Assembly: GCA_902792435.1 (NCBI GenBank)
Contig: CADAZN010000025.1
Location: 1-39,668 of the forward strand
Reading direction: 5' to 3'
Source of the DNA: an uncultured Bacteroidales bacterium
Lineage (GTDB): Bacteria > Bacteroidota > Bacteroidia > Bacteroidales > Muribaculaceae
Length of the DNA stretch: 39,668 nt
Shown: positions 2,032 to 27,206 of the stretch, piece by piece
Numbering within the stretch: the stretch's first letter is position 1
Layout of the letters: each line of letters begins with the position of its first letter
Notes under the pieces: model-generated
Databases searched by the model: none
Told to the model about the DNA's origin: nothing
The model's input: the letters and a program-made list of their open reading frames with translations, nothing else
Position numbers and translations under genes: made by a program

Positions 2032-3900
<1,869 letters not shown>

Positions 3901-3919
3901 AACAGTTCTCAGTTTTCAG

Positions 3920-4102
3920 TTTTTTTACGACAATTAAGGACAAAGAAATTTTTCATTAGATTTCGTATACTTAGCCATTCGGCTATTGAGTATTATAGAC
4001 AATTGACTCGTTTTTTTACGACAATTAAGGACAAAGAAATTTTTACATTAGATTTCGTATACTTAGCCATTCGGCTTTTGAGTATTATAGACAATTGACT
4101 CG
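3920..4102. repeat. Tandem duplication, two copies of about 91 bp
   Basis: Copy 1 spans 3920-4010 and copy 2 spans 4011-4102, head to tail. They differ by one inserted A (TTTTTCATT versus TTTTTACATT) and one substitution (GGCTATTG versus GGCTTTTG). Both begin with a T7 run followed by ACGACAATTAAGG and end with GACAATTGACTCG. There is no coding potential. Confidence 0.9.
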
Positions 4103-4151
4103 GTTTTTTACACAGATCAGGGGAGAGGGAAGAGGGAGAGTTGAGAGAAAT

Positions 4152-4188
4152 AAAAACTGCCAGCCCGGTTGGGGACTGGCAGTTTTTT
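4152..4188. terminator. Bidirectional terminator between ABC-F gene and frdB
   Basis: AAAAACTGCCAG (4152-4163) pairs with CTGGCAGTTTTT (4176-4187), giving a 12-bp stem with A and T tracts on opposite sides. It therefore works on paper for both convergent genes. It ends 18 bp beyond the frdB stop. Confidence 0.85.
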
Positions 4189-4205
4189 AATGTGGTTGGC
4201 GATGG

Positions 4206-4961
4206 TTAGTCGCTGCACTTAGCGCTGATGTACTCGCGGTTGAGTCGCGCGATGTTGCTCAACTTGATGTTCTTAGGGCACTCGGCAGCACAGGCACCGG
4301 TATTGGTGCAGTTACCGAATCCCAGCTCGTCCATCTTTTGGAGCATAGCCTTTACGCGCTTCTTAGCCTCGGCCTTACCTTGTGGCAGGAGAGCGAACTG
4401 GCTCACCTTGGCCGAAACGAAGAGCATAGCCGAACCATTCTTACAAGCAGCTACACAAGCACCGCAGCCAATGCAGCTAGCGCTGTCCATTGCCTCGTCG
4501 GCAGCCACCTTGCTGATGGGGATAGCGTTGGCGTCTTGAGCGCCACCGGTGTTGAAGCTAACGTAGCCACCAGCCTGCTGGATTTGGTCGAACGCATTGC
4601 GGTTAACCATCAAGTCCTTGATAACAGGGAATGCAGCCGAGCGCCAAGGCTCAACAGTGATGGTCTCGCCATCCTTGAAGCGGCGCATGTAGAGCTGGCA
4701 AGTGGTAGCTCCAGTAGCGGGTCCGTGAGGATGTCCGTTGATGTATAGCGAGCACATACCGCAAATTCCCTCGCGGCAGTCATGGTCAAAAGCTACGGGT
4801 TCTTCTCCCCTCTCAACGAGCTGCTCGTTGAGAATATCGAGAGTCTCAAGGAACGAGGTATCGGTAGGGATGTCCTGGAGTTCGTAGGTTACAAATTCAC
4901 CTTGCGCCTGAGGATTAGCTTGGCGCCAAATTTTCAGTTTAATATTAATATTTGTTTCCAT
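4206..4961 (-). CDS. frdB: Fumarate reductase/succinate dehydrogenase iron-sulfur subunit
   Basis: 251 residues. It transfers electrons between the membrane cytochrome b and the flavoprotein at the inner face of the cytoplasmic membrane. The N-terminal ferredoxin domain has the [2Fe-2S] ligands Cys62, Cys67, Cys70 and Cys88 (CREGICGMC). The C-terminal domain has [12 protein letters not shown] (Cys163, 166, 169, 173) and [12 protein letters not shown] (Cys218, 224, 228) for the [4Fe-4S] and [3Fe-4S] clusters. The start [12 protein letters not shown] was preferred to an in-frame ATG 13 codons upstream, because that extension reads through simple-sequence repeat and is unlike the family. It is the last gene of frdC-frdA-(four-helix gene)-frdB, followed by a strong hairpin. 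Confidence 0.95.
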
Positions 4962-4970
4962 ATCTGTAGT

Positions 4971-5013
4971 GGACAAGTAGACAAGAAGACAAGAATACAA
5001 GAAGCATGAGAGG
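4971..5013 (-). repeat. 8-nt periodic repeat, downstream arm
   Basis: Plus-strand units ACAAGTAG, ACAAGAAG, ACAAGAAT and ACAAGAAG are followed by CATGAGAGG. They lie between the four-helix-bundle gene and frdB. They are the inverse of the array at 5437-5472, so the two arms could pair in the operon mRNA. Confidence 0.7.
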
Positions 5014-5020
5014 ACTTCTC

Positions 5021-5413
5021 CTAATCAGTTTCTACTTCGCTTTTATCAAGTTCTTTTTTCTTGTTATTAGCCAGAGCGGTTGCCATTCTTATTATTTCAT
5101 GAATTTGACTAGTGAGATGGTCAAAATCATTTCCATTTATTAGTCCAATTTCATGACAAATAATGAGTTGTGTTTCGATCTCAGCAGCTGACCCAATAGC
5201 GATATATAAAAAACGTATAAGATCTTTCTTGGAGCCACGTCCATTTCCTTCAGCAATATTAGAAGGAATGGAAACTGCTGCGCGTCGAAGTTGGGATGTT
5301 AATCCAAACATTTCATCTTTTGGAAAAGCCCTTGTGATAAGATAAATGTCCTTCACAAAACTAATGCTTTTGCTCCAAACTTGCAGATTTTTATGTATTG
5401 GATAATCGGCCAT
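5021..5413 (-). CDS. Four helix bundle protein (23S rRNA intervening-sequence protein / Avd-like family)
   Basis: 130 residues, the usual size of this family. Family signatures are [18 protein letters not shown] near the start and then [19 protein letters not shown] followed by [16 protein letters not shown]. The fold is a small four-helix bundle, best known from ORFs inside 23S rRNA intervening sequences and from the Avd accessory protein of diversity-generating retroelements. The molecular role of free-standing copies is unknown; nucleic-acid binding is inferred from Avd. No reverse transcriptase or variable repeat is nearby. It sits between frdA and frdB on the same strand, where most operons of this type have frdB directly after frdA. 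Complementary 8-nt periodic arms flank it (4971-5013 and 5437-5472), suggesting it arrived as an insertion. Confidence 0.9.
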
Positions 5414-5436
5414 ACCAAACTAATTGCCAGGGAACC

Positions 5437-5472
5437 CTCTCGTTTTCTCGTTTTCTTGTTTTCTTGTTCTCT
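5437..5472 (-). repeat. 8-nt periodic repeat, upstream arm
   Basis: On the minus strand the array reads ACAAGAAA, ACAAGAAA, ACGAGAAA, ACGAGAGGG. It starts about 9 nt after the frdA stop and precedes the four-helix-bundle gene by roughly 23 bp. It is complementary to the array at 4971-5013 with a similar period. Confidence 0.7.
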
Positions 5473-5480
5473 AAATAAAA

Positions 5481-7490
5481 CTAGTTCTTGTAATTTCTGG
5501 TTTGTACCTTAATTGCCTCGTAGTGTAGTGGCTCCTTGATGAGCGTTGGTGCCTTGGTGTCGTCACCGTTGTATTTCCAGCAAGCCACATAGAAGAAGTT
5601 CTCGTCGTCGCGCTTGGCTTCGCCTTCCTCGGTTTGATGCTCCTCGCGGAAGTGTCCACCACACGACTCCTCGCGGTTGAGTGCGTCGTAAGCGATGAGC
5701 TCGCCCATAGTGATGAAGTCGCGCAGGCGGAATGCCTTGTCTAGCTCAATGTTCATGCCTTCTTGGTCGCCAGGAATGAAGAGGTTGGTCTCAAATTCCT
5801 TGCGCAAGTCTTTGATTTTCTCAAGGGCAATCTCGAGACTCTCTTTGGTACGTCCCATGCCCACATAGTCCCACATGATGTTACCCAGCTCCTTGTGGAT
5901 AGAATCAACTGAGCGGCTGCCCTTGATGTTCATCATGGCATCAAGATCGGCCTGTACGCGTTCCTCGGTCTCCTCAAACTCTGGGAGGTCGGTGCTGAAG
6001 CGTGGCACAGTGATTTGGTCGCTCAAGTAGTTCTGGATGGTGTAGGGGAGTACGAAGTAACCGTCGGCAAGACCCTGCATCAAAGCCGAAGCACCGAGTC
6101 GGTTAGCGCCGTGGTCGCTGAAGTTGCACTCGCCAATAGCGAATAGACCCTTGATTGAGGTCTGCAGCTCATAGTCAACCCAGATGCCACCCATTGTGTA
6201 GTGGATAGCGGGATAAATCATCATTGGGTTGTAGTAGTTAACACCGTTGATCTCGTTGGCGAGCTCACCAGGATTCACGTCGGTAATTTCCTCATACATG
6301 TCGAAGAGGTTGCCGTAGCGCTGACGCACAACATCGATGCCCAAGCGGTTGATTGCCTCGCTGAAATCGAGGAATACTGCTTGGCCAGTGTTGTTCACAC
6401 CGTAGCCCTTGTCGCAACGCTCCTTGGCAGCGCGGCTGGCCACGTCGCGGGGAACGAGGTTACCGAAGGCAGGATAGCGGCGCTCGAGATAGTAGTCACG
6501 CTCCTCCTCGGGAATGTCACTACCCTTGATTTGTCCGGCTTGCAGCTTCTTGGCATCCTCAATGTTCTTGGGCACCCAGATGCGGCCATCGTTACGCAGC
6601 GACTCACTCATGAGGGTGAGCTTCGACTGCTTGTCGCCGTGGCGTGGAATGCAGGTTGGGTGAATTTGAACATAAGCTGGGTTAGCAAAGTAAGCACCCT
6701 TGCGGTAGCAAGCCATAGCGGCGCTCACGTTACATGCCATAGCGTTGGTCGAGAGGAAATAGGTGTTGCCGTAACCACCAGTGGCGATTACCACAGCGTG
6801 GGCAGCAAAACGCTCAAGCTTACCTGTAACGAGGTTCTTGGCGATGATACCACGTGCGCGACCGTCGATGATTACCACGTCGTGCATTTCGTAGCGGTTG
6901 TAGCTCTTCACGTTGCCCATCTCAATCTGGCGGTTGAGTGATGAGTAAGCGCCGAGCAGCAATTGCTGGCCAGTTTGTCCCTTAGCATAGAATGTGCGGC
7001 TTACTTGAGCGCCACCGAATGAACGGTTGGCGAGCAAGCCACCATATTCGCGTGCGAAAGGTACACCCTGTGCTACGCACTGGTCGATAATATTGTTTGA
7101 CACCTCGGCAAGACGGTAAACGTTGGCCTCGCGAGCGCGATAGTCACCACCCTTAACAGTGTCGTAGAAGAGGCGGTAAACCGAGTCACCGTCGTTCTGG
7201 TAGTTCTTAGCGGCATTGATACCACCCTGCGCAGCGATAGAGTGAGCGCGGCGTGGAGAATCTTGAATGCAGAAGTTCAACACCTTGAAACCCATCTCAC
7301 CCAGAGTAGCAGCAGCGCTGGCACCAGCAAGTCCAGTGCCCACAACGATGATGTCGAGGCGGCGCTTGTTGGCAGGGTTAACGAGTTTTTGGTGTGCTTT
7401 ATAGTTTGTCCATTTCTCAGCAACAGGTCCCTCGGGGATCTTAGAGTCAATGACTGGCTGAGCAACGTTGTTCTTAATGTTTTCTTCCAT
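5481..7490 (-). CDS. frdA: Fumarate reductase/succinate dehydrogenase flavoprotein subunit
   Basis: 669 residues. This is the catalytic subunit interconverting fumarate and succinate. The FAD-binding Rossmann motif is [12 protein letters not shown] (Gly51 on), and [14 protein letters not shown] carries His83, the expected covalent FAD attachment site. Substrate-site segments include [11 protein letters not shown] and the C-terminal FAD-contact stretch [17 protein letters not shown]. Length and sequence fit the Wolinella/Bacteroides-type quinol:fumarate reductase, which pairs with a single diheme cytochrome b. The start is 38 bp after the frdC stop. Downstream, the four-helix gene and its repeat arms separate it from frdB. 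Confidence 0.95.
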
Positions 7491-7528
7491 TTTGAAAAGT
7501 TTTTAATGATTAATTACTCAGCTTAAAC

Positions 7529-8209
7529 TTAGCAAGCTCCAATGCATTCGCATCCCCAAGCAAACTTGCAAGTGAGTGCGATAACGCAAATAGCAAACAG
7601 CAGCATAACGATGGTTGCCCACCACCAGCCAATGCATTTCCAGCGCTCAATCCACTTGTCGTTGTTTACACCAATCGACTGGAATGCGCTCCAGAAACCG
7701 TGGGTGATGTGGAACCAGATGGCAACAAAGCCAATGAGATAAACGATGCATACCCAAGGCTGGCTGAAAGTAGCCTCAAGAGCCTCACGTCCGCTAGCGG
7801 GATACTCGCCCATGATTTCGGGTAATTGCATCTTAGCCCAGAACTGATAGAGGTGCAGCACCAAGAAGCACAGCACGATCAGGCCAAGGACGAACATGTT
7901 TTGCGAAGCCCATTCAACGCTCTTGGGACGCTTGGTGACAGCATAGCGGTCGGCACCACGCGCGCTGCGGTTTTGCAGCGTGAGGATGAACGCATAGATA
8001 ATGTGAATCACAAAACCTGCGGCGAGCACTGCAGTGCCCAGCAGAGCATACCAGTTGGCACCGAGGAACTCGCAAACAGCCTCATAAGCATCGAGCGAAT
8101 AGACAGCCACAATGTTCATCAGTGCGTGGAATGTTAAGAATAGGATAAGGAACAAGCCAGTGACACTCATCACCACTTTCCTACCTACCGAAGATTTGAA
8201 TAACCACAT
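7529..8209 (-). CDS. frdC: Fumarate reductase/succinate dehydrogenase cytochrome b subunit
   Basis: 226 residues with about five hydrophobic membrane segments (starting near residues 12, 55, 103, 150 and 200). Histidines in TFHALMNIV, GFVIHIIYAF, VLHLYQFW and WFHITHGFW are candidates for the axial ligands of the two hemes in type B cytochrome b subunits. It anchors FrdAB and exchanges electrons with menaquinone. It is the first gene of the operon, has a good promoter upstream (8303-8333), and is divergent from the first C10 protease. Confidence 0.93.
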   Translation of the reverse strand: MWLFKSSVGRKVVMSVTGLFLILFLTFHALMNIVAVYSLDAYEAVCEFLGANWYALLGTAVLAAGFVIHIIYAFILTLQNRSARGADRYAVTKRPKSVEWASQNMFVLGLIVLCFLVLHLYQFWAKMQLPEIMGEYPASGREALEATFSQPWVCIVYLIGFVAIWFHITHGFWSAFQSIGVNNDKWIERWKCIGWWWATIVMLLFAICVIALTCKFAWGCECIGAC

Positions 8210-8302
8210 AGTTGATTTTAGAATTTAGTTATTAATTGATTTATTTAATTAGTTATCAATGCAATAGTAGCCACGCGCGCAGCGTATGGCCGATTTTCAG
8301 TG

Positions 8303-19705: not shown

Positions 19706-19819
19706 ATGGGTTTATGGTTTATGGTTTATGGGTTGGTTAAACGTGGAAAGTGGATCGGAGTTCAGGCTCTAGATTGCCTAGAAGTTCTAGAATTCTAGAA
19801 CTAAGAACTAAGAACTTTC
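19706..19819. repeat. Short-period repeats and palindrome upstream of susC
   Basis: Three GTTTATG units (7-nt period) lie at about 19709-19731, just upstream of the susC start codon. Next to the DUF2027 gene stop are AGTTCTT-type 7-nt units (minus strand) running into the perfect palindrome GTTCTAGAATTCTAGAAC (19784-19801), which could act as a hairpin for the DUF2027 mRNA. No TAnnTTTG box is seen on the minus strand. Confidence 0.55.
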
Positions 19820-21029: not shown

Positions 21030-22673
21030 ATGGCTAACACTCCTGAGTTTAAGTATGCCCCCATGTTCCAGCTTGGGGAAGACAAAACCGAGTATTACCT
21101 TCTTACTAAGGACCACGTGAGCGTGGGTGAGTTTGAAGGCAACCCAATCCTTAAAGTAGAGCCCGAGGCCCTGACCAAGCTTGCTAATGCTTGCTTCCAC
21201 GACGTGTCGTTCATGCTGCGCCGTGCTCATAACGAGCAGGTGGCTAAAATCCTGAGCGACCCCGAGGCTAGCGAGAATGACAAATATGTGGCACTCACCT
21301 TCCTGCGCAATGCCGAGACTTCGGTAAAGGGTCAGCTACCTCTGTGCCAAGACACCGGTACTGCTATCATCCATGGCGAGAAGGGCCAGCAGGTGTGGAC
21401 TGGTTTCTGTGACGAGGAGGCTCTGTCGCTTGGCGTTTTCAAGACCTACACCGAGGATAACTTGCGTTATTCGCAGAATGCTCCTCTCACTATGTTTGAC
21501 GAGGTGAATACCCGCTGCAATTTGCCAGCACAAATCGACCTCGAAGCTACTGAGGGCATGGAATATAAGTTCCTGTGCGTTACCAAGGGTGGTGGCTCGG
21601 CCAACAAGACTTACTTGTATCAGGAGACCAAGGCCCGCATTCAAAATCCTGGCACTCTCATTCCATTCCTTGTAGAGAAAATGAAATCACTGGGAACAGC
21701 TGCTTGTCCTCCTTATCACATTGCTATCGTGATTGGCGGCACAAGTGCCGAGAAGAACCTGCTCACTGTGAAGTTGGCTTCCACTCATTACTATGACGAG
21801 TTGCCCACTACTGGCGACGAGACTGGCCGTGCATTCCGCGACATTGAGCTTGAGAAGCAGCTGCTCGAGGAGGCTCAGAACATTGGCCTTGGCGCACAGT
21901 TTGGTGGCAAGTATTTGGCACACGACGTGCGTGTGGTTCGCTTGCCACGTCATGGCGCTAGTTGTCCAATTGGTTTGGGCGTTAGCTGTAGTGCCGACCG
22001 CAATATCAAAGCAAAAATCAATAAAGATGGTATATGGATCGAGAAGCTCGACGACAATCCAGGCGAATTGATTCCCGAAGAGCTTCGTCAAGCAGGCGAG
22101 GGCGATGCTGTGAAGATTGACCTCAACCAGCCAATGAGCGAAGTTTGCAAGATATTGAGTCAGTATCCTGTGAGCACCCGTCTGAGCTTGAACGGCACCA
22201 TCATCGTGGGCCGCGACATCGCTCATGCCAAGATTAAAGCACGTCTTGATGCTGGCGAGGGAATGCCTCAGTATCTTAAGGATCACCCCATCTACTACGC
22301 AGGACCTGCCAAGACTCCTGCAGGCATGGCTTGCGGCTCGATGGGCCCAACCACAGCAGGTCGCATGGACCCCTATGTTGATGAGTTCCAAGACCACGGC
22401 GGCAGCCTGATTATGCTTGCTAAGGGTAACCGTTCACAAGCCGTTACCGATGCTTGCAAGAAGCATGGCGGCTTCTATCTGGGCTCCATTGGTGGACCAG
22501 CCGCTATCCTCGCTCAGAACAACATCAAGAGCATTGAGTGCGTTGAGTATCCCGAACTCGGCATGGAGGCCATCTGGAAGATTGAAGTAGAAGACTTCCC
22601 CGCATTCATCCTCGTTGATGACAAGGGCAACGACTTCTTCAAGCAAATCAAGCCTCGCTGTCCGCTTAAATAA
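21030..22673 (+). CDS. Class I (iron-sulfur) fumarate hydratase
   Basis: 547 residues, the full two-domain length of class I fumarases (FumA/FumB type). It interconverts malate and fumarate in the cytoplasm. The N-terminal domain has [17 protein letters not shown] (Cys106), [13 protein letters not shown], and [15 protein letters not shown] (Cys226); [16 protein letters not shown] carries Cys320. These three cysteines match the known [4Fe-4S] ligands by position. The C-terminal beta domain includes [40 protein letters not shown] and [20 protein letters not shown]. The enzyme is oxygen-sensitive and fits an anaerobe. Functionally it feeds the FrdCAB complex encoded 13 kb away. It has its own promoter box and terminator, so it is monocistronic. 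Confidence 0.95.
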
Positions 22674-22703
22674 TGCATAATTCATAATGCACAATGCATA
22701 ATG
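22674..22703. repeat. Short-period AT-rich repeat after fumarase stop
   Basis: Directly after the TAA come overlapping TGCATAAT, TCATAATGCA and CAATGCATAAT words, a near-tandem array of 7-8 nt units. There is no coding potential. It belongs with the other short-period arrays located at gene ends in this window. Confidence 0.6.
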
Positions 22704-25787: not shown

Positions 25788-25826
25788 TTTACTTTCCACT
25801 CTCCACTCTTAACCCTCCACTCTCAC
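25788..25826 (-). repeat. Short-period repeat overlapping the miaB stop codon
   Basis: On the minus strand, GAGTGGA-type units with a period near 7 (GAGTGGAGGG, then GAGTGGAGAGTGGAAAGT) start inside the last codons of miaB, span its TAA at 25809-25811 and continue downstream. The last residues of MiaB (RVEG) are therefore encoded by repeat sequence. Confidence 0.6.
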
Positions 25827-27206
25827 ACCAATTAAAGTTGCGCTGGTGGCTTTTTCAACTTTGCAAGTGACGAAGTCGCCAATCTTAGTGTCGCCAGCTG
25901 GGAATACAATTACCTTGTTTTGCTGAGTGCGTCCAAACATATCATCCTTAGAACGCTTGCTGTATCCCTCGACAAGAACCTCAAAGGTTTTGCCCACGTC
26001 GGCGCGGTTGCTGCAAAGAGAGAGCTCGTTTTGCAAAGCAATCATGCGGTTGAGGCGATCAATCTTCACTTCCTCGGGCACGTTGTCGGGCAGGCGCTTG
26101 GCGGCCAAAGTGCCAGGTCGCTCGCTGTACTTGAACATGAACGACGAGTCGAAGCCCACCTCACGCATCAGCGACAAGGTCATCTCGAAATCTTCTTCGG
26201 TCTCGTCGTGGAAGCCGGTGAACATATCGGTCGATATGCCGCAGTCGGGCATAGCGGTGCGTATGCGGTCGATGCGGTCGAGATACCACTCGCGTGTGTA
26301 CTTGCGGTTCATGAGTTTGAGCACCTTGTTGCTGCCACTTTGAACTGGCAGGTGTATGTGGTTGCATATGTTGTCGTGGCTGGCCATCGTGTCGATGATG
26401 GCGTCGCTCAGGTCCTCAGGATTGCTGGTGGTGAAGCGCACACGCATCTCGGGTGCCGCTTCGGCAACCATTGCAAGAAGTCCAGCAAAGTCAACATCCT
26501 CTTGTCCTCTTGTCTCCTTGTCCTCTAGTCCTCTTGTCCCCTTGTAAAGATAGGAATTGACATTCTGCCCCAGCAGGGTAACTTCCTTGAAACCCTTCTC
26601 TTGCAGATCGTGTAGCTCATTGAGGATGCTTTGAGGCTCACGGCTGCGTTCGCGGCCACGGGTGTAGGGCACGATACAGTAAGTGCAGAAGTTGTTGCAT
26701 CCACGCATGATGGAGATGAAGCCACTGGTGCGGCTACCACTGATGCGTGTGGGGATGATGTCGCGGTAGGTCTCGGTGGTCGAGAGCTGCACGTTGATAG
26801 CCTTTTCACCAGCCTCGGCGGTGGCAATTAGGCTAGGCAGCTCAAGATAACTGTCGGGACCAGCTACCAAGTCAACACCGTGGTTGTTGATGAGCTCGTC
26901 CTTCATGCGCTCGGCCATGCATCCAATGATGCCGATGATGAGTCGTCGGTCACGTTTGCGTCGCAAAGCGTTCAGCGTGTTGAGACGAGCGAAGATGCGC
27001 TGTTCGGCATTGTCGCGCACACTACATGTGTTGATGAATATGGCGTCGGCACTGTCTAGATTGTCGGTAGTTCCGTATCCTGCCATCTGCATCACGCTGG
27101 CTACTACCTCGCTGTCGGCGACATTCATCTGGCAACCATAGGTCTCCAAAAACAGCTTCTTGGGGAACTCTGCGCTCCCCTCATATTTTAAATCAAGTTT
27201 GTTCAT
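25809..27206 (-). CDS. miaB: tRNA-2-methylthio-N6-dimethylallyladenosine synthase MiaB
   Basis: 465 residues. A radical SAM methylthiotransferase that modifies A37 of tRNAs reading codons that begin with U. The N-terminal domain starts LFLETYGCQMNVADSE with a first [4Fe-4S] cysteine, then INTCSVRDNAEQR and IGIIGCMAERM. The radical SAM core has RGCNNFCTYCIVPYTRGRERS (CxxxCxxC). The C-terminus is a TRAM domain (from about residue 400, ending VRVEG). Between VNSYLY and VDFAGLL lies KGTRGLEDKETRGQED, 16 residues encoded by six 8-bp repeat units, where relatives have a short variable loop. The frame is preserved, so the protein is probably functional. The promoter lies at 27235. Confidence 0.95.
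   Translation of the reverse strand: MNKLDLKYEGSAEFPKKLFLETYGCQMNVADSEVVASVMQMAGYGTTDNLDSADAIFINTCSVRDNAEQRIFARLNTLNALRRKRDRRLIIGIIGCMAERMKDELINNHGVDLVAGPDSYLELPSLIATAEAGEKAINVQLSTTETYRDIIPTRISGSRTSGFISIMRGCNNFCTYCIVPYTRGRERSREPQSILNELHDLQEKGFKEVTLLGQNVNSYLYKGTRGLEDKETRGQEDVDFAGLLAMVAEAAPEMRVRFTTSNPEDLSDAIIDTMASHDNICNHIHLPVQSGSNKVLKLMNRKYTREWYLDRIDRIRTAMPDCGISTDMFTGFHDETEEDFEMTLSLMREVGFDSSFMFKYSERPGTLAAKRLPDNVPEEVKIDRLNRMIALQNELSLCSNRADVGKTFEVLVEGYSKRSKDDMFGRTQQNKVIVFPAGDTKIGDFVTCKVEKATSATLIGVRVEG
26498..26545 (-). repeat. Six 8-bp repeat units in frame inside miaB
   Basis: On the coding strand the units are ACAAGGGG, ACAAGAGG, ACTAGAGG, ACAAGGAG, ACAAGAGG, ACAAGAGG. Six units make 48 bp, exactly 16 codons, so the reading frame is kept. 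The unit matches those in the arrays flanking the four-helix-bundle gene (4971-5013 and 5437-5472). Confidence 0.9.

Follow-up and report, generated by a model that had tools for sequence, protein, structure and literature searches.

The window analysed here, a stretch of 39,668 nucleotides from an uncultured Bacteroidales bacterium of the Muribaculaceae (assembly GCA_902792435.1, contig CADAZN010000025.1), contains a frd operon on the minus strand. Between frdA and frdB lies a small IVP/S23p gene, bracketed by two short tandem arrays that are called arms below. The features of the locus are the following.

4206 to 4961 (end approximate), minus strand: frdB, iron-sulfur subunit, the host gene downstream (PRK07570, 424 bits)
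4971 to 5004, minus strand: 3' arm in operon sense, a complementary period-8 array of the TTCTTGTC type, about 4.1 copies (TRF, 4972-5004; array scan, 4968-5003; alignment)
5021 to 5413, minus strand: IVP/S23p four-helix-bundle gene, 130 aa (PF05635, TIGR02436; PDB relative 2gsc)
5438 to 5472, minus strand: 5' arm in operon sense, a period-8 array of the ACAAGAAA type, about 4.4 copies (TRF, array scan, alignment)
5481 to 7490, minus strand: frdA, flavoprotein subunit of fumarate reductase / succinate dehydrogenase, the host gene upstream (PRK07573, 1142 bits)
7529 to 8209, minus strand, in common with frdA and frdB: b558-type membrane subunit

The initial annotation had placed an IVP/Avd-like four-helix-bundle gene inside the frd operon, and the profile searches agreed with this. 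The protein scored 138.9 bits against PF05635 (23S_rRNA_IVP; cut-off 33.8) and 133.3 bits against TIGR02436 (cut-off 24) and thus belongs to the family; its PDB relative 2gsc was found at E 2.1e-24. The Avd proteins of diversity-generating retroelements form a related family, but the scores against DivGenRetAVD (26.1 bits) and bAvd (23.9 bits) were below the respective cut-offs of 80 and 40. The neighbouring genes inspected, which were frdA, frdB, the membrane subunit and an ABC protein, included no reverse transcriptase, and the element was not classed as a diversity-generating retroelement. Pfam at E 0.001 gave PF05635 and a weak bAvd match only, with no transposase or nuclease domain. No other open reading frame of at least 80 aa was found between the arms, no recombinase was seen with the element, and it was not classed as an insertion sequence or transposon. 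A search of window positions 3800-8300 against Rfam, up to E 1, returned only a weak Thr_leader below the gathering score.

TRF confirmed arrays of about four 8-nt units on both sides of the gene, and these are complementary to each other; GAGAGG could be read directly from the sequence near the inner end of each arm, also as first described. The 5' arm starts 8 nt past the frdA stop codon and the 3' arm ends about 9 nt short of the frdB start. In operon sense, the 5' arm and the reverse-complemented 3' arm aligned along 36 nt with 78% identity (score 40, as compared to a swapped-arm 95th percentile of 33.6), in line with the pairing proposed for the operon mRNA. Folding of the operon-sense RNA of the insert likewise gave paired arms (-136.3 kcal/mol, z -4.1), and none of 100 shuffles was as good. 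A general repeat search with default settings at 4700-5700 reported neither direct nor inverted repeats, because the match between the arms is imperfect; TRF and local alignment detected them. A 92-nt tandem duplication (97% match) was also observed at window positions 3919-4111, between an ABC-F type gene and frdB. It is resembled by a TTGAGTATTATAGACAATTGACT stretch beside an ACAAG array in locus L395.

To compare junctions, frdB was searched in 61 genomes of the genus and was matched in 57. Among the best 30 frdB loci one had no frdA, leaving 29 readable frdA-frdB junctions. Six of these held the IVP gene with both arms and 23 were empty, with a stop-to-start distance of 8-34 nt, so that gene and arms were present or absent together. 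No target-site duplication was seen when filled and empty junctions were compared by eye. The arm units differed among the six filled junctions: ACAAGRRR-type octads were found in G000 and G041, a related octad, ACAAGTTN, in G044, and other units in G001, G014 and G005. The four frd IVPs entered in the tree formed one group with support of 97/70, the second value being under the usual 80. Repeated independent insertion into frd is therefore disfavoured, and the likeliest history is one old insertion in which both arms later changed unit together. At one empty junction (L017) three CGTAAAN/CGTAACN heptads were found, perhaps a remnant of the element.

The frd insert is one case of a wider pattern: in several phyla, IVP genes have inverted arrays on both sides, mostly with units of 7 nt; the search for such arrays around other four-helix-bundle genes had been proposed at the outset. 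Local complementarity was scored between the 150 nt before and the 150 nt after each gene, with arms swapped between loci and shuffled flanks as controls. A PF05635 match was present in 55 of the 61 genus genomes, and among the matches listed 137 loci (8 + 29 + 100) were studied, 135 of them with usable flanks, at 65 host sites. Among these 135 listed loci, cognate arms had a median score of 47, as compared to 18 for swapped arms (95th percentile 33.6) and 18 for shuffled flanks (highest 46); 106 lay above the swapped 95th percentile and 68 above the best shuffled score. The array unit differed from locus to locus and was common to both arms of one locus. The own genome had eight PF05635 matches, the weakest two (L007, L008) under the family cut-off, and only L001, L004 and L005 of the eight exceeded the swapped 95th percentile. 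Outside the genus, the loci above their own swapped 95th percentile were 17 of 29 in a phylum sample (12 were not) and 35 of 75 in named genomes (40 were not), or 35 of 48 when 27 loci of Chryseobacterium and similar genomes were left out. Named hosts with good arm matches included Oscillospiraceae, Selenomonadaceae, Chloroflexi, Planctomycetota, Verrucomicrobium, Desulfobacca and Treponema.

The period was examined in the 99 of 169 loci with a score of at least 34. Identity within the 5' arm was 0.63, 0.61 and 0.55 at lags 7, 14 and 21, as compared to about 0.31 when shuffled, and no other lag from 2 to 21 gave a rise in these 99 loci. The best period of 98 5' arms was 7 in 63, 8 in six and none in 26, and the frd element with its period of 8 is of a minority type. 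Period-7 arrays were found upstream of the IVP gene in 74 of 169 loci and downstream in 71 of 168 (shuffled, 0 and 1), and the median array length was 5.1 units on each side. At threshold, period-7/8 arrays stood on both sides in 65 of 168 loci, on one side in 38 and on neither in 65. Stop codons in all three frames were enriched in the 5' arms (54% of 99; shuffled 28%, reverse complement 34%), but they do not explain period 7 in general, since the frd arrays have no stop codons in sense. In the flanks of L245, L251 and L213, pairs of inverted heptad arrays were observed that are separated by a few nt and enclose no gene; these resemble gene-free miniature elements.

Eight loci on cyanobacterial plasmids were chosen from 28 records. 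A period-7/8 array with a score of at least 12 was found on at least one side in seven of them and on both sides in five; the eighth (L451) had an array score of 11.2. In L445 the array was not adjacent to the IVP gene and had no partner, and in L447 two arrays ran mostly in the same direction. Some of these genes and their heptad or octad arrays were seen inside CRISPR-Cas operons, as cas6-IVP-cas4 (L447, L452) and cas10-IVP-cmr3 (L448), and in L446 an array-flanked IVP gene lay between two ribonucleotide reductase genes.

The arms were also found to follow the protein lineage. Between different host sites, arm 5-mer sharing was 0.73 at an IVP identity of at least 75% (44 pairs) and 0.07 below 30% (2522 pairs), where a few 'different' pairs, such as L137/L139 (97% identical), may be one site, as host-site groups were defined by flank similarity. 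The correlation of arm unit with IVP identity was not reached in any of 200 permutations (106 loci, 53 sites). Two related elements, L150 and L151, matched from arm to arm with 90.7% identity across 492 nt; the match ended in the arms and the flanks differed, one element lying before cysS and the other after it. The upstream gene was codirectional with the IVP gene in 107 of 109 callable loci out of 169 (26/28, 26/26 and 55/55), and the downstream gene in 102 of 118, although in only 19 of 32 in the genus. The codirectional rule fails on the cyanobacterial plasmids, where the IVP gene was antisense to both annotated neighbours in three of eight loci. Eight of the 12 largest site groups held a single IVP clade among the grouped entries, which indicates that movement is rare. 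Different IVP clades were observed at the 3' end of seemingly the same host gene, which we take to be a UbiE-like methyltransferase, in different species (L127 as compared to L147/L152).

Arrays of the same kind were also found in the window and in the rest of the genome without an IVP gene. Two such solo arrays in the window are the following.

22670 to 22703, plus strand: AATGCAT/AATGCAC heptad array starting at the stop codon of a class I fumarase gene (array scan, TRF)
26497 to 26545, minus strand: ACAAGRGG octad array with the core of the frd arm, in the variable loop of miaB (25809-27206) and with no IVP gene (array scan, TRF)

The fumarase was identified by NCBIfam and miaB by TIGR01574 (489 bits). 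Among the 30 loci examined, the fumarase-stop array was present in G000, G010 and G001 and missing from the other 27. The miaB loop was different, and mostly shorter, in the other 29 of 30 loci examined. A degenerate heptad array (GGAGAGT type, minus strand) was seen at 25791-25824, overlapping the miaB stop codon, which gives miaB an internal array and a second one at its end. At 19709-19816, between two minus-strand genes, GGTTTAT and AGAACTA heptad arrays and a CTAGAA-type repeat were observed, also with no IVP gene. A three-unit pattern of the frd arm was found at 14 further places in the own genome, hits within 100 nt being merged as one; there were 54 hits in total, as compared to two with the reversed control. 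Next to IVP genes, 84 kb of sequence contained 175 flanks with an array (2.08 per kb), as compared to 58 arrays in 334 kb further from them (0.17 per kb). Many solo arrays had neither a gene nor an adjacent partner arm, and no fixed orientation to genes was found (16 with, 29 against). The miaB locus hinted that a host TACAAG might seed ACAAG arrays, but frd did not bear this out, as the array there begins only after a further 14 nt. The initial annotation had named gene-free arrays at unrelated positions as speaking against its reading, and such arrays proved to be common. As their unit tends to match the arms of a resident IVP gene, they widen the picture and do not thereby make the arms accidental.

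The tie between arrays and IVP genes was examined in sampled stretches of up to 20 kb, taken from 8 IVP-free and 9 IVP-rich chosen genomes and then from 20 regions per class, mostly in list order. IVP-free was defined as no PF05635 match at E 0.001, and three genomes with less than 2 kb of sequence were dropped. No period-7/8 array was found in 727 kb from 25 IVP-free genomes, as compared to 61 in 736 kb from 27 IVP genomes. Arrays were present in 17 of these 27 (Fisher by genome 4e-7, the genome counts taking no account of phylogeny), and none was found in the sampled stretches of the other 10, including those of G251 (15 IVPs) and G184 (10 IVPs). The control periods 5, 6, 9 and 10 gave 22 arrays in IVP-free and 26 in IVP genomes. 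The number of IVPs and array density had a rank correlation of 0.61, and the second sampling batch alone gave 0 arrays in IVP-free and 20 in IVP-bearing regions. G+C content was rejected as the cause, because the difference persisted at a G+C of at most 0.50 (0 arrays in 300 kb against 50 in 656 kb). Of the 61 sampled arrays, 59 were not within 300 nt of an IVP gene.

The units ACAAG, AATGC and GTTTAG were then counted in the 61 genus genomes as overlapping pattern hits, not arrays, after subtraction of IVP-flank hits. Genomes with a cognate-armed IVP among the loci examined contained 405 of 416 solo hits for ACAAG (3 of 61 genomes), 708 of 814 for AATGC (10 genomes) and 492 of 680 for GTTTAG (13 genomes). 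Solo hits were present in all 26 cognate genome-unit cases, and in 3 of 58 (ACAAG), 9 of 51 (AATGC) and 19 of 48 (GTTTAG) remaining genomes, defined as those in which the unit does not occur twice in tandem in the examined loci and in which further IVPs may exist. The exceptions with many hits and no cognate IVP among the examined loci were G006 (41) and G048 (36) for GTTTAG and G033 (27) and G047 (25) for AATGC; the G047 IVP has a related arm that the search pattern missed. Solo arrays thus preferentially carry the unit of the resident IVP. The genomes have common ancestry, so an IVP gene and a repeat family could have been passed down jointly even if neither produces the other.

The IVP protein is maintained under constraint, as median dN/dS was 0.093 in 65 same-site pairs with usable dS. 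The solved relatives 2gsc and 2rld have five chains each, from which a ring of five subunits is probable. The X. campestris protein is called a homopentamer in the accessible text of PMC4990558. The median pI of IVP proteins is 6.9 and that of the frd protein 6.4, so they are not basic, and this does not suggest a general nucleic-acid binder.

We lean slightly towards reading the frdA-frdB insert as a mobile protein-encoding element with cognate satellite repeats, a trans role of the protein being suggested by association. The element is a compact unit of about 0.5 kb, with an IVP gene between two inverted arrays of about 4-6 copies each, the units usually being 7 nt (8 nt at frd). Its protein may recognise arrays of its own unit and may help to make, spread or keep them, and the gene would then own a satellite-repeat family, much as REP repeats belong to RAYT transposases. 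Within the frd operon the element would be passive cargo between a stop and a start codon, carried by a few related species. The extension of this reading to the whole family, in which IVP/S23p proteins would be trans-acting makers or keepers of scattered heptanucleotide arrays, each lineage would own a family with its own unit, and 23S rRNA intervening sequences would be one special case, is tentative, and we are slightly more inclined to doubt it than to accept it.

The insert had initially been read as an mRNA-level intervening element that spreads with its own stem, and this account was only partly upheld. The element does go with its arms, as seen at the frd junctions and in L150/L151, but the arms do not look as if they were maintained for an RNA stem. 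In a helix selected at the RNA level, G.U mismatches should be better tolerated than A.C mismatches, and no excess of G.U was found either in 47 of 65 sites with a stem score of at least 40 (G.U 73, A.C 79, p 0.69) or in 99 of 169 loci with a score of at least 34 (G.U 143, A.C 167, p 0.19). The result does not support pairing maintained to a visible degree by RNA-level selection, although cleavage of the stem is compatible with it. The order of unit variants was mostly not mirrored between the arms: when heptads were permuted in 30 loci, the median fraction of permutations reaching the real score was 0.5, and the real score was above the permuted mean in 16 loci and at p<=0.05 in five. Most of the pairing thus comes from the common unit and not from exact copying. 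That the arms pair in the frd transcript and are cut by RNase III, with the IVP RNA excised or the frdA and frdB messages separated as in 23S rRNA intervening sequences, is unlikely in our judgement. It fits the strong stem predicted in operon sense, the codirectional upstream genes, which would be expected if the host transcript matters, and the Coxiella 23S intervening sequence, for which the accessible text of PMC4990558 gives RNase III cutting, a 28-bp terminal stem and tandem GACAGAT heptamers before the S23p start. The wobble counts and the unmirrored heptads argue against it, as do the antisense genes on cyanobacterial plasmids and the many solo arrays with neither gene nor adjacent partner arm.

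We find it similarly improbable that polymerase slippage and hairpin-templated copying make the arrays as a by-product that some lineages favour, with IVP genes as passengers trapped by recombination. Copy number does vary between related loci and stem mismatches are strand-symmetric, and a polymerase explanation of heptamers has already been proposed, as far as the accessible text of PMC4692102 goes. This would, however, leave unexplained why IVP-free stretches have no arrays while other periods are similar in both classes, why array units match the resident IVP, and why arrays are denser beside IVP genes. More doubtful still is the idea that the arrays are regulatory RNA sites, in which IVP rings would bind single-stranded arrays in UTRs and control the neighbouring genes, the element being a small regulon. 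The model for this is the TRAP ring, which binds (G/U)AG repeats. C is scarce in the sense strand of the 5' arm (10.6%), so that the two strands are not equivalent, and TAG and AGT each occur in 67 of 99 loci; several arrays begin at stop codons, and the median of 5.1 units in period-7 arrays is close to the five chains of each solved entry. Against this, there is almost no constraint on the unit sequence, close species lack the fumarase array, one array lies within the coding sequence of miaB, and our informal impression of the host genes revealed no common function.

The favoured reading, a mobile element with its own satellite repeats, can be compared with known systems. In the RAYT/REP system (REPtron), a tyrosine (HUH) transposase, RAYT, goes with a palindromic repeat, REP. 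The frd element resembles this system in that a gene is framed by inverted copies of a short repeat and solo copies matching the resident gene are scattered in the genome. It is not a member, because the IVP is a four-helix bundle, not a tyrosine transposase, and the repeats are tandem arrays of 7-8 nt (8-mers at frd), not palindromic REPs. Bacterial heptanucleotide arrays, also named STRR, are likewise mostly intergenic tandem heptads with a patchy distribution across species. They have been described as TAACTGA heptads in Beggiatoaceae, cyanobacteria and five Bacteroidetes (PMC4679880) and as GGGAATC of Xanthomonas and GGGGATT of Nostoc (PMC4692102), in the accessible texts of which no gene family is linked to them, whereas here the unit goes with the IVP lineage. 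The words 'intervening', 'helix bundle' and '23S' are all absent from the main text of PMC4679880 as accessible. With the 23S rRNA intervening sequences that carry an S23p ORF, such as that of Coxiella in the accessible text of PMC4990558, the frd element shares the protein family, pairing terminal inverted repeats that can form a stem, heptamers before the start codon and a size of about 0.4-0.5 kb. It differs in lying between protein genes and not inside a 23S rRNA gene, in having arrays as both arms and in having cognate solo arrays scattered in the genome.

In open-access papers, to which our search was confined, no report linking the S23p/IVP family to heptad arrays was found. The protein family and the other parts were already known; what the association suggests as new is the system of a gene with cognate satellite arrays. 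As IVP carriers tend to carry matching scattered repeats, the protein and the repeats are suggested to be one previously unlinked genetic system. Two long-standing puzzles, the role of S23p/IVP proteins and the origin of heptanucleotide repeats in cyanobacteria, Bacteroidetes and others, may then have one answer, and the link between gene and array makes both testable.

A second, longer type of PF05635-like protein, of about 200-240 aa, was also observed in the own genome (L006, L007 and L008). Upstream of L006 and L007 the repeats were of other kinds and self-paired.
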